NCBI RefSeq assembly: GCF_024227435.1
Contig: NZ_CP100446.1
Span: forward strand, 124,001-188,000
DNA: 64,000 bases
Direction: 5' to 3'
From: Natrinema caseinilyticum
Lineage (GTDB): Archaea; Halobacteriota; Halobacteria; Halobacteriales; Natrialbaceae
Position numbers and translations under genes: made by a program. The notes below the pieces were generated by a model, which was not told where the DNA came from, made no database searches, and saw only the letters and a list, made by a program, of their open reading frames with translations. This document shows positions 13,672 to 55,216 of this stretch, one piece after another. How positions within the stretch are numbered: the stretch's first letter is position 1; each line of letters begins with the position of its first letter.

Positions 13672-13983
13672 GGTACCGGTCCCCGACCCGATCGCAAAAA
13701 CGGCGTACTGATACTGGTCCCCCAAACCCGTCACGCAAAACGACGTACTGGTACCGATCCCCCCCAAACCCGTCACGCAAAACGACGTACTGGTACCGAT
13801 CCCCCCCAAACCCGTCACGCAAAACGACGTACTGGTACCGATCCCCCCCAAACCCGTCACGCAAAACGACGTACTGGTACCGATCCCCCCCAAACCCGTC
13901 ACGCAAAACGACGTACTGGTACCGATCCCCCCCAAACCCGTCACGCAAAACGGCTTACTGGTACCGGTCCTCGACCCGATCGC
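13672..13983 (+). repeat. 42-bp minisatellite (about 5 copies) with matching 24-bp flanks
   Basis: From about 13715 to 13957 a 42-bp unit (core acgtactggtaccgatcccc) is repeated about five times, almost perfectly. The outer edges carry a 24-bp string starting ggtaccggtcc at 13672-13695 and 13960-13983 (one mismatch). The right copy is the 3' coding end of the synthetase at 13955, whose TAA lies in the last unit. The array therefore looks like amplified, degenerate copies of that gene end. Read backwards it gives a 14-residue repeating frame, which I regard as non-coding. Confidence 0.9.
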
Positions 13984-22312: not shown

Positions 22313-22332
22313 ACACTTCGATAGAGGGGTGT
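22313..22332 (+). repeat. Origin recognition box (ORB) copy
   Basis: Matches the local consensus acac(t/a)tcgatagaggggtgt exactly. It lies downstream of the orc1/cdc6 gene. Confidence 0.75.
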
Positions 22333-22355
22333 CATTGTTCTCAGTATTTGAAAAA

Positions 22356-22377
22356 ACACATCGATAGAGGGGGGTGT
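22356..22377 (+). repeat. ORB copy with extended G-run
   Basis: acacatcgatagagg followed by a six-G-rich stretch and tgt. It is 24 bp after the previous box, in the same orientation. Confidence 0.75.
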
Positions 22378-22468
22378 TCGTATCGAATCGCACTCGAGAC
22401 GGCGGTGAGAAATCACAACCCGGCGGTCAGTACCAGAACGTAATTACCGACGGCTATCCGACCCGAGC

Positions 22469-22488
22469 ACACTTCGATAGAGGTGTGT
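22469..22488 (+). repeat. ORB copy adjoining the 23-bp array
   Basis: acacttcgatagaggtgtgt. Its 3' end runs directly into the 23-bp tandem array, which begins with the same gtgtgtga string. Confidence 0.75.
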
Positions 22489-22490
22489 GA

Positions 22491-22628
22491 TGGATCAGTT
22501 GGAGGGTGTGTGATGGATCAGTTGGAGGGTGTGTGATGGATCAGTTGGAGGGTGTGTGATGGATCAGTTGGAGGGTGTGTGATGGATCAGTTGGAGGGTG
22601 TGTGATGGATCAGTTGGAGGGTGTGATG
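22491..22628 (+). repeat. 23-bp tandem repeat array (six copies)
   Basis: The unit tggatcagttggagggtgtg plus tga occurs at 22491, 22514, 22537, 22560, 22583 and 22606, nearly perfect. It is followed by degenerate copies to about 22650. There are no spacers, so it is not CRISPR. Its position between ORBs, downstream of the initiator gene, suggests iteron-like or slippage-derived DNA at the origin. Confidence 0.92.
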
Positions 22629-22852
22629 GGTCCGTTCGAGGGTGTCTGATGACCACCCGCCATCTCCCACAACCATATCTGATGGTCGATATCTGAGACG
22701 ACGGTGTGATCGACTCGGGAATCACTGGTGTGGAGTCCATCGGGTCGGAGACGAAAGGCTGATCGAATTGTTTCAGTCAGACCACCATTCGGCTGTGTCT
22801 GAGCCGCTATTCGTCTCGAACGGGGCCTGAACGGAAGACGTCGACCTGGCGT

Positions 22853-22870
22853 ACACTTCGATAGCAGTGA
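22853..22870 (+). repeat. Degenerate ORB
   Basis: acacttcgatagcagtga keeps the left half of the box but has lost the G-run. It lies 68 bp beyond the stop of orc1/cdc6. Confidence 0.5.
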
Positions 22871-22937
22871 GTCGTCGACGCACGAAGATGGGTACTGATT
22901 GTCGAGGCGACTGCCACGGAATTTGACTCCGATCGGC

Positions 22938-24395
22938 TTAGGTTTCGTCCCTAATCTGTGCTTTTACCACACTCGAAACCTCACTCGGAGAGACGACATC
23001 GATACGCGAATCCTCGCGCAGCGTTTCGAGGATTGTCTCAGGTCGTTCGCCGAACTGGAACTCGAGGAACATCCCGGAACTCGGCCCGTGGCTCCGACGC
23101 TCGAAATCGACCAGCGAGTACGTCGTCATCTCCTTCATCTTGTTTACGTACGTCTCCTGGTGATACTGCTCGGCGTCGATCGCGTCAGTGAGGAACTGGT
23201 AGACACGATACCCGGTCGTACTGCGAGCAGCTTCGTCGTCCGTCTCGGCCGCGACGGCAGCAGTCGCATAGAGACACAGTTTCTTCTGTGTGCTGATACC
23301 GCGAACGACCTCGAGGACACGGTTCTTCTCGACTTTGTCCTGTGCCTGACGGACGTGGACCTCGCGCACGTTATCGTCCCCTTCCCGTTCTGCGAGTTCG
23401 CCTGCGACGCGCATGAGATCGATCGCTTTCCGCGCATCACCGTGTGTTTGGGCCGCAAATGCAGCTGCCAAGGGGATGACATCGTCGTCGAGAACGTTTT
23501 CGTAGAACGCGTCCTGGCGCCGGCGGAGAATCGACTGTAGCTGATTGGCGTCGTAATCGTCGAAGTGAACGTCTTCCGGCGTGAACGAACTCAGAGCACG
23601 GCTTCCCACGGATTCCATCATTTTCGTATCGTTGGAGATCGCAACGACGGATATGTGAGCGGTGAGTTCGTTATTGGCACCAGCTCGCGATAGTTGATAG
23701 AGAAGCCGAGAGAACGCCGGCTCTTGCTTGTCTCGGCGGCCAACGAGCATATCGAGTTCGTCGAGGACGAAGACCGCAGAATCGAAATTTTCGTTGACGA
23801 TACGATAGAGTTCGTCCCACTTTTCCTTCGTTGCGACGCCGTGTTTCGGAACCTCTACTTCGACGTGCGCCTCGTCGGCAGCACAATTTGCCAGTTCGTA
23901 GACAGCGACTCCAAGAGTATCAAGGTCCTGGCAATTTACTTCGATTGTCCCAAATCGAATATCTCGTGTTTCGCAGATCTCACTGATATTCTTACAGACA
24001 GCTTTAGTGATGAGCGATTTTCCGGTCCCCGACGGACCGTAGAGAAAGAGATTCGGCGGCCGATTGTCACCGAGTGCAACTCGAAGCATTTTGGTCACTT
24101 CCTGGAGTTGTCTGTCCCGACCGACGATTCTATCCTCTTCGACGATATGATTCGGATCGAGCAGCGATCGGTCGCGAATGAGCCCCTCTTGTTGATCGAA
24201 CTCCAATAACATATCCTCGATCGATTGCGAATCATCGGCCGCTTCCGATTCGTTCGAGGCGGCCGCTTCCGATTCGTTCGTGGAGAAAGATTCCAGCCCC
24301 TCTGAGGAGTCCGAGGAGGGAGTGCTGCCTTCGGACGGCCCGTCCTTCGATTTCCTCGTTCCCTCTCGAGGATCGTCGAAGTCGTCTGTACCCAT
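22938..24395 (-). CDS. Orc1/Cdc6-type replication initiator
   Basis: 485-aa origin-binding AAA+ ATPase. An acidic, Ser/Glu-rich N terminus (about 1-65) precedes the AAA+ core with the ORB-contacting ISM region. Walker A is GPSGTGKS near 118-125 and Walker B is VFVLDELD near 212-219. The sensor-1 segment VVAISND is near 248, followed by HGDARKAIDLMRVAG (sensor 2, near 314). A C-terminal winged helix (about 390-485) binds ORB DNA. ATG 24395 (MGTDDFDD) is preferred, with in-frame ATGs at 24407 and 24422 possible. Repeats on both sides with the local box consensus mark this as the initiator's own origin. Several haloarchaeal replicons each carry such a pair. Confidence 0.95.
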   Translation of the reverse strand: MGTDDFDDPREGTRKSKDGPSEGSTPSSDSSEGLESFSTNESEAAASNESEAADDSQSIEDMLLEFDQQEGLIRDRSLLDPNHIVEEDRIVGRDRQLQEVTKMLRVALGDNRPPNLFLYGPSGTGKSLITKAVCKNISEICETRDIRFGTIEVNCQDLDTLGVAVYELANCAADEAHVEVEVPKHGVATKEKWDELYRIVNENFDSAVFVLDELDMLVGRRDKQEPAFSRLLYQLSRAGANNELTAHISVVAISNDTKMMESVGSRALSSFTPEDVHFDDYDANQLQSILRRRQDAFYENVLDDDVIPLAAAFAAQTHGDARKAIDLMRVAGELAEREGDDNVREVHVRQAQDKVEKNRVLEVVRGISTQKKLCLYATAAVAAETDDEAARSTTGYRVYQFLTDAIDAEQYHQETYVNKMKEMTTYSLVDFERRSHGPSSGMFLEFQFGERPETILETLREDSRIDVVSPSEVSSVVKAQIRDET

Positions 24396-24432
24396 ACAAA
24401 GGTCCATACAGGGCGGAACCAAAAGTGTTCCC

Positions 24433-24449
24433 CACCTCTATCGATGTGT
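24433..24449 (-). repeat. ORB copy (inverted), next to orc1/cdc6 start
   Basis: cacctctatcgatgtgt, the reverse complement of the box with a shortened G-run. It lies 38 bp before the chosen ATG, so initiator binding could autoregulate the gene. Confidence 0.7.
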
Positions 24450-24619
24450 GTTTCACCGAGTGAGACTGCTAATAGACGAAATTCGGTCGATCGGATCGAT
24501 AGATCGTCGAAGCGACGAGTTGATGAAACGTCTGCGGAAATACTGGCTACTCGAGGGACTTGCAGCCTACGCACGGGAAATTAACTGCGCGTGTGATGGG
24601 CGAATACGTGGAGGGACAG

Positions 24620-24639
24620 ACACCCCTCTATCGATGTGT
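24620..24639 (-). repeat. ORB copy (inverted)
   Basis: acacccctctatcgatgtgt is an exact inverted box. A half box, tatcgaagtgt, follows at 24649-24659. Confidence 0.78.
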
Positions 24640-24903
24640 TTCGGTCCGTATCGAAGTGTCCGTTCGACTGGGTAGGAGAGAACCAGTCGAAGATGGAGAA
24701 AAATAAACTTGGATGATTCAGAACAAAATGGGCCTGGGGACGATTATCCTACAGAAAATGAAAGAAAAGGCTGGTGTATCAGTGAATATCTACAGTATTT
24801 CTACACATCTTCGGACGAGGTCTATAGAGATATACGACCGATGAAAGACGTACAATATGACGCTACCGAAACGATAAATACGTATAGATTAGGAACACAT
24901 CGA

Positions 24904-24924
24904 ACACTTCGATAGAGGGGTGTG
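24904..24924 (+). repeat. ORB copy on the far side of the AT-rich element
   Basis: acacttcgatagaggggtgt followed by g. It is a full box, opposite in orientation to 24433 and 24620. A partial box (acacatcga) directly precedes it. Confidence 0.78.
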
Positions 24925-25122
24925 GGTGTTCTATCTAGTCTAGCTAGATGAAAAGAAGAAGAAAGAAACGTGATGGATCTCTTTTCGTCGGCATCTCTTC
25001 AAGAGATATCTAAATTCTCCAATACAGCTGTGGAATAATGGACGAATGTTGAATTTCTGGCTTTGGCTGGGTATTCCCTGCAATCTCGTCGTGCTCATCG
25101 ACCCCCCCACCTCCCTGCGGAA

Positions 25123-25143
25123 ACACATCGATAGAGGGGTGTG
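25123..25143 (+). repeat. ORB copy
   Basis: acacatcgatagaggggtgt followed by g. It is a full match to the box consensus. Confidence 0.78.
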
Positions 25144-25310
25144 GGTGTCCTCGAGAAACTCATACTCTGTCTCCATATGGTCGATGCGGTAGGTTGTTCT
25201 CACCGTTGTTCTTCCGACCAGTTGTACCGGCTCGACGCATTTCGATCGGTGATCCATCTGGATCCGATAAACCGACAAACGCTTCGGTAGGATCTACGTC
25301 GTTACGACAA

Positions 25311-25330
25311 ACACTTCGATAGAGGTGTGT
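25311..25330 (+). repeat. ORB copy
   Basis: acacttcgatagaggtgtgt, the same variant as at 22469. It is the outermost box on this side. Confidence 0.75.
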
Positions 25331-25985
25331 CCTAGTACAATCACCGTTCCGGGGATCTTGTCGCCGTTTCTCCCGAAATTCGAACGAGAACAAGACGTTC
25401 CGCTAAGGGGTCTGGAGTTCTCGAACTGGCGTGACGGCGAACGTATCTGGCTCGCTGGCTGACGCGTCACGCTCCGTCGTCGGGGATGCCGATCCTGTGA
25501 GTTGGGCGACGAACTCGACTCGAACTGTCTATTGAGGGGCGGTGGTCTTGTGCCAGCCCAGCCGGTCGTCGAAGCGCTGTTTCTGGAACTGGTTGCCGAC
25601 ATCGTCACCGGCATCATACTAGCTGTGCTTCTTTCTCCTCATCTACTGTGAGATGAATACGGCTCCCACGTCTCCGTGCGTCAGCTCGACGAGGGCACAC
25701 TCCACGAGCGGGATGACCGACGCATGATCTCGGTCGGTCGGAATACTCAGATCGAAGCCCGTCCGCGGGGCCTCACTGCAGGATTGTTCGTCTCTCGATG
25801 CATCCTTTGCGTCTCGGTAGTCCGTTCCGAAGCTATATTCTGGAGACCGCGCGTGATGCGTTCCTCTACACCCTTACGAAAATAATTCTCCGGGTGACGA
25901 CGACTACCACTCGGTCTGAGAAAGCCGGCGGCCTTGGCACACTCTACACACTCCGTGAGTTGGCTTCGGATATCAGCTACGTGCT
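25331..25985 (-). other. Gene-poor flank of the origin with possible coding remnants
   Basis: No intact gene is recognised. Leftward, a frame ending at 25643 encodes PLVECALVELTHGDVGAVF, resembling FVECVLVELTHADVGAEY at about 39,165-39,220 on the plus strand. A second leftward stretch (about 25,800-25,970) has coding-like composition. Neither has a start codon or full domain, so I treat them as decayed fragments of an unidentified haloarchaeal family. Confidence 0.3.
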
Positions 25986-26329: not shown

Positions 26330-26460
26330 TGCCGGAAAATACGTTCTCGTGACATATAAACACTCAGGAGCCCAGTGAACGATCGAACTCGTTCTGCCAC
26401 GGTAGCCTCAGTGTACTCTGATCCTAGAAATCGACCCTCTTTCGATGGATGTGGTACATG

Positions 26461-26498
26461 TGACACTCTCGATTATTGGTGACACTCTCGATTATTGG
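26461..26498 (+). repeat. 19-bp tandem duplication downstream of the TrmB gene
   Basis: tgacactctcgattattgg occurs twice in tandem at 26461-26479 and 26480-26498, starting 20 bp after the leftward TrmB stop. Confidence 0.85.
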
Positions 26499-26518
26499 TG
26501 AGGAGATACGAGCGAAAA

Positions 26519-54661: not shown

Positions 54662-55216
54662 TAATCGGCAGATGAATTTCATCGTCGTCACGAATCGCTT
54701 ATCGTTGCCGGCTTGCAGGCGATACTGACCGTTCTGGCCTTCGTGGTCATCGACTTCGAGGATCTCATCTTCTGGGGCGTGGTCACGTTCGTCCTATCGT
54801 TGCTTCCGCTGATCGGTGCGTCGATCGTCTGGATTCCAGCAGTGGTCTATCTCGCGATTGTGGGGAACATTCCAGCAGCGGTGGGGCTGCAGGTATATGG
54901 AACCGTCGTCATTAGTAGCTCGGATAACTTTGTCCGGCCGCTCGCAATGCAACGCGGAGCGCGTCTTAACTCCGGGCTGCTCGTTCTCGGCATCTTCGGT
55001 GGGGTGGCCGTTTTCGGGTTCCCTGGTCTCTTCACCGGCCCAGTCATACTGGGGCTGTCGAAAGTCATCGTCAATCTGCTGGTGGAACAGTCATACTGGG
55101 GCTGTCGAAAGTCATCGTCAATCTGCTGGTGGAAATACGTGGTACACCTAGAGAAAGCCGATGAGAGACCGGCCTGCGCGAACCGCTGGCCGTCAGTGAT
55201 ACCCTGTCTTTGGTGA
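54662..55216 (+). pseudogene. AI-2E family transporter, internally deleted and frameshifted
   Basis: The frame from about 54713 encodes only the C-terminal helices (GASIVWIPAVVYLAIVGNIP, NFVRPLAMQRGARLNSGLLV, GIFGGVAVFGFPGLFTGPVI), homologous to residues about 215-335 of the intact gene at 61432. The DNA at 54672-54705 (gaatttcatcgtcgtc) matches the leader of the intact gene (61348), so the N-terminal coding part was deleted between. A 47-bp tandem duplication at the end (55041-55134) breaks the frame. Confidence 0.82.
55041..55134 (+). repeat. 47-bp tandem duplication
   Basis: The unit beginning cagtcatactggggctgtcg occurs at 55041-55087 and 55088-55134. Its length is not a multiple of three, so it frameshifts the pseudogene end. 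Confidence 0.92.

Follow-up and report, generated by a model that had tools for sequence, protein, structure and literature searches.

What does a group of ORB boxes do on the far side of an initiator gene whose upstream flank already looks like a replication origin? The question is raised by positions 22313-25330 of the window (the whole 64,000-nucleotide stretch analysed here, C2:124001-188000 of a 4.77-Mb Natrinema genome on three contigs), where a first-pass annotation had described a complete origin with about ten ORBs around orc1/cdc6 and had suggested that the downstream ones, thought to be a less usual feature, might form a second binding region or a replication-control site.

A probable origin with boxes on both sides of orc1/cdc6

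Eight exact copies of ACACNTCGATAGAGG and two degenerate ones flank the minus-strand gene, five exact and one degenerate lying upstream and three exact and one degenerate downstream (Table 1). The positions of the boxes, the inversion of the upstream group and the composition of the downstream group were thus all as first described. The boxes carry a terminal G-string, their consensus ending in GAGGGGTGT. When up to three mismatches are allowed, ACACNTCGATAGAGG has 20 matches in the window against 7.6 expected and a maximum of 14 in 100 shuffles, several of the 3-mismatch matches being attributable to chance or self-overlap. At up to two mismatches there are 53 matches genome-wide, as against 10 for the reversed pattern, and the exact sequence occurs ten times, always on contig C2: in the eight copies described here and at C2:318931 and C2:319954.

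Table 1. Features of the origin region (positions in the window)
Feature	Position	Strand	Basis or remark
Downstream ORB 1, exact core with G-string	22313..22332	+	core search
Downstream ORB 2, exact core	22356..22375	+	core search
Downstream ORB 3, exact core, adjoins 23-bp array	22469..22488	+	core search
23-bp tandem array, 7.5 copies, adjoins third downstream ORB	22482..22651	+	tandem-repeat scan
Degenerate downstream ORB, 2 core mismatches	22853..22872	+	core search
orc1/cdc6 replication initiator, 485 aa	22938..24395	-	TIGR02928
Conserved AACACTTTT / AACCTTTTT element	24421..24429	-	start-proximal listing
Start-codon-proximal ORB, -54 of orc1/cdc6, beside TATA-like AACACTTTT	24430..24449 (core 24435)	-	
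Upstream ORB, gene-proximal arm	24620..24639 (exact core 24625)	-	
Degenerate upstream ORB, 3 mismatches	24640..24659 (core 24645)	-	
AT-rich stretch between inverted ORBs	24690..24889	.	62% AT, top 0.3% of the window's 200-bp stretches
Upstream ORB, distal arm, exact core	24904..24923	+	
Upstream ORB, distal arm, exact core	25123..25142	+	
Upstream ORB, distal arm, exact core; last before 170-kb segment	25311..25330	+	

The central gene matches the TIGR02928 profile at 2e-127 (425 bits, cut-off 181). Its best solved relatives are 2qby_A, which we take to be Sulfolobus Cdc6-1, and another Cdc6 homologue, 2v1u, and its closest relative is found in Natrinema gelatinilyticum (94%). Among plasmid records 382, drawn from many genera of haloarchaea, match the initiator at 1e-30, and in 50 of these the identity reaches at least 60%; the phage records searched gave no match. 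When the window was scanned for Rfam families and tRNAs, nothing was found. Since this is the sole TIGR02928 match on contig C2 (715,316 bp), the region is very probably where a secondary replicon of 715 kb, a megaplasmid or minichromosome of this Natrinema species, starts its replication. The cumulative GC skew of C2, a weak proxy, has no extremum at the locus, whether or not the 170-kb segment discussed below is included. The adjacent orc1/cdc6, the boxes and the AT-rich element all support the original description of a haloarchaeal origin at the level of sequence.

In the orientation of the gene, the exact upstream boxes are arranged < < < > >, the commonest order in relatives being < < > > > (24/49), and they are inverted about an AT-rich stretch that is probably the duplex-unwinding element. 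The 80-bp AT peak lies inside the innermost inverted boxes in only 12 of 50 sequences, which leaves the unwinding site unfixed by this measure; that of the window itself lies outside this pair, about 65 bp beyond. Closer to the gene, 32 of 50 sequences (the window and 49 relatives) have a box about 54 bp ahead of the start codon, with AACACTTTT or something very like it next in line, although in L058, which is among these 32, the TTTT element was not seen. The AACACTTTT / AACCTTTTT element is probably the TATA region of the orc1/cdc6 promoter, and the start-proximal ORB, which would overlap this promoter, is probably an autoregulatory site at which orc1 would repress itself. A helical phasing of the ORB spacings was also considered, the gaps between innermost inverted boxes seeming to cluster near 183, 194 and 206 bp, and was rejected by a tree-aware analysis: of 22 disjoint nearest pairs only 9 had changed by at least 5 bp, and those 9 had no 10.5-bp phase (p 0.37).

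Conservation of the downstream group

To count downstream boxes in relatives, 57 related loci were fetched, eight divergent ones (L059, L061 to L067) were removed, and boxes with up to one mismatch were recorded within 700 bp downstream of the initiator gene. At least one box is present in 47 of the 49 relatives, all of which share the box type of the window, at least two in 41 and at least three in 31, the number ranging from 0 to 7, whereas 200 permutations of the pattern, searched for in like manner, yielded a mean of 0.005 matches. In the two exceptions, L034 and L046, the boxes are displaced to +1.3 to +1.9 kb, past long open frames. Far from being less usual, then, a downstream group is the rule among close relatives. 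Orientation is equally regular, 149 of the 153 downstream boxes pointing the same way. Among the divergent loci, L062 to L067 have oppositely oriented boxes when up to two mismatches are allowed, whereas none is present in L059 or L061.

The boxes have outlasted the DNA around them. With boxes masked, the downstream DNA of 48 of the 49 relatives has no detectable similarity to that of the window, and still 46 of these 48 have a box within 700 bp. Moreover, downstream boxes match the consensus as well as upstream ones do (18.02 and 18.05 of 19 positions, respectively). Because the boxes were kept while their surroundings turned over, and because their match to the consensus is equal, we conclude from these comparisons that the downstream group has been maintained by selection and not by recent copying.

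The 23-bp array beside the third downstream box is a different matter. That array and boxes are mixed, as the first-pass annotation had it, holds at this locus but does not extend to the family: the array (in which 7 copies are matched if up to 5 mismatches are allowed) is absent from all 57 related loci scanned, a set to which the plasmids pHLAC01 and pL131 considered below do not belong, and in the host genome it is confined to this locus. N. gelatinilyticum has the three downstream boxes, with a matching spacing of 112 and 43 bp as compared with 113 and 43 bp in the window, without the array, which among the 57 loci is private to the host species. The 23-bp unit made a weak candidate for a degenerate ORB, 68 of 2000 shuffles scoring equally well, and we do not claim it as one. 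Other tandem repeats in the window are a 42-bp repeat at 13697-13970 (6.6 copies, 96% match), a perfect 47-bp duplication at 55041-55134 and, just past the origin, a perfect 19-bp repeat of 2.2 copies at 26460-26501.

A probable split origin

The two remaining perfect ORBs of the genome, C2:318931 and C2:319954 (L072 2931-2953 and 3954-3976), lie 170 kb from the origin. Their flanks match those of the outer ORB pair at the origins of two sister species, N. gelatinilyticum and N. halophilum, in which the pair is on the same side. The spacing between its members there is 312 and 328 bp, and it is located at roughly -2.4 to -2.7 kb and -1.2 to -1.6 kb. Between the two remote boxes a transposase-like gene with inverted ends has been inserted (so labelled from its translation and not from a family match). 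The 169.6 kb that separate the core from the pair (C2:149340-318917, starting at window position 25340 and running past the end of the window) have 55.9% GC compared with 61.6% elsewhere, and are enriched in plasmid-like matches. We read the remote boxes as the outer pair of this very origin, which would have been cut off by insertion of the low-GC segment, replacement being a possible alternative to insertion. The idea that the segment is a copy of the 165-kb plasmid of N. gelatinilyticum was dropped, as only 19% of it matches and the matches are not colinear, other parts of C2 having about 1% or nothing matching that plasmid; it is read instead as plasmid-like accessory DNA. In Natrinema zhouii (the L019 genome), a single exact ORB (G002:C3:341569) is likewise remote, some 66 kb of the contig separating it from the origin there.

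That part of the origin now stands 170 kb away from the rest might be taken as a sign that the replicon carries a dormant or degenerate origin, and dormant origins do exist in haloarchaea (PMC4595724). We consider this very improbable, however, given that Orc1 is intact, that eight boxes are exact and that C2 has no second TIGR02928 match.

Precedents and possible roles of the downstream boxes

The two-sided layout is already known. According to the accessible text of the respective papers, a 2012 survey describes ORBs on either side of several genes (PMC3528665) and a review calls the structure common and ascribes it to many predicted origins (PMC4010727), a comparison of Haloarcula origins adding nothing on downstream clusters in the part available (PMC4441112). 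The layout is also that of Haloarcula hispanica, and the present finding therefore belongs to a known type, to which this origin adds another case. The downstream group tested in these sources is oriC2D of H. hispanica, which was shown to be a negative regulator and has 11 ORBs spread over 722 bp on the downstream side of cdc6E; it is reported not to be deletable alone, to have no ARS activity and to reduce the copy number of oriC2 plasmids, and its authors proposed that it titrates Cdc6E (PMC3936714). The C2 origin resembles oriC2-cdc6E-oriC2D in having ORBs upstream and, directly downstream of the initiator gene, a one-way cluster of several like ORBs without an origin structure of its own, that is, without a strong AT-rich element. 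It differs in its initiator family and box sequence, in the size of the cluster (three exact boxes and one degenerate, against 11) and in its location on a 715-kb contig and not on the main chromosome. The initiator is only 29% identical to the probable cdc6E product of H. amylolytica (L084), so the two do not qualify as orthologues; L084 was assigned by its one-way group of 11 downstream boxes, which is as reported for H. hispanica oriC2D, and not by synteny, no 16S having been found in the H. amylolytica assembly when an rRNA operon was looked for.

Boxes on both sides recur in other replicons. When repeated 10-mers were collected automatically and then assessed by eye, seven of 14 H. amylolytica orc genes (L075, L076, L077, L080, L082, L083 and L084) had recurring boxes in both flanks, the remaining seven having none, boxes on one side only or repeats unlike ORBs; the set runs from L075 to L088, with L092 counted with L086 and the short above-cut-off L089 and L090 left out. 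The protein of L075, a locus that also has downstream boxes, shows no difference from Cdc6K of H. hispanica pHH400 over 405 residues. Within the host genome, an orc1/cdc6 on the 114-kb contig C3 is flanked on either side by boxes of a different type, ACACWTCGATGACGGGGGG (L131 3669-6094), and three orc genes of C1 had no clear boxes on testing. Closest in kind are H. lacusprofundi pHLAC01 and N. pharaonis pL131, which share the initiator family (81% and 87%) and the box, with five boxes each upstream and four each downstream; in plasmid origins like these, the order and number of upstream boxes vary.

Against this background we propose, with a probability of about 0.7, that Orc1 fires the C2 origin from the upstream ORBs, represses its own gene and is braked by the downstream ORBs. 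By extension from known archaeal origins, Orc1 made from the central gene would bind the inverted upstream boxes and open the AT-rich stretch, while the ORB at the start codon would probably let it repress its own promoter; the one-way downstream boxes would probably take up Orc1 and so restrain initiation, by analogy with H. hispanica oriC2D. The elements that can be read directly from the DNA are the boxes, their layout, their conservation amid sequence turnover and the single orc1/cdc6 of the contig. That the downstream group is a replication-control site was a good guess of the first-pass annotation, and oriC2D supplies it with a published precedent. A likeness in working only is offered by datA of E. 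coli and the inhibitory sites of the Vibrio cholerae chromid, clusters that bind the initiator away from the minimal origin and reduce initiation, the initiator being DnaA or RctB instead of Orc1/Cdc6 (PMC6090056; for datA also PMC3936714).

The brake could also be a copy-number control of another kind, in which Orc1 on the downstream ORBs would pair with Orc1 bound upstream, be it on one and the same molecule or on its sister, and would thereby block firing in the manner of bacterial plasmid iterons. The anatomy is shared with iteron replicons that have inhibitory repeats near the initiator gene. The plasmids P1 and F have the same order of parts, namely origin iterons, initiator gene and inhibitory iterons downstream. 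This is an analogy only, as their initiators RepA and RepE are unrelated to the Orc1/Cdc6 found here. The uniform direct orientation of the downstream group would suit such handcuffing, and in the V. cholerae chromid titration and handcuffing are reported to act jointly (PMC6090056). On the other hand, plain titration explains the H. hispanica data, and a literature search on handcuffing by cdc6 in archaea returned no paper whose title concerned archaeal origins; we thus hold handcuffing at this origin to be unlikely. More doubtful still is an extended scheme in which the megaplasmid family would practise an iteron-like copy control through a eukaryote-type Orc1, with the one-way downstream ORBs handcuffed to the inverted upstream ones and an outer pair acting like datA from 170 kb away. 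The good preservation of the downstream boxes, equal to that of the upstream ones, speaks for their being a second start or a positive element such as a spare loading platform. Nevertheless, the boxes are one-way and have no comparable AT-rich element, the highest AT content of any 200 bp being 0.525 in the downstream group as against 0.62 upstream, and mixed box orientation occurs in only two of the 47 main-clade relatives having such boxes; oriC2D alone, moreover, is reported to lack ARS activity (PMC3936714). A second start or positive element is hence hardly probable.

The downstream cluster has been retained almost throughout a family of plasmid origins that extends across many haloarchaeal genera. 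Within the literature found, and as far as its available text goes, downstream clusters have been tested at one chromosomal origin; their conservation here opens the replication control that they may exert to testing on a secondary replicon as well. The host strain, with its split origin, is in addition a natural experiment on whether the outer ORBs must be in cis.
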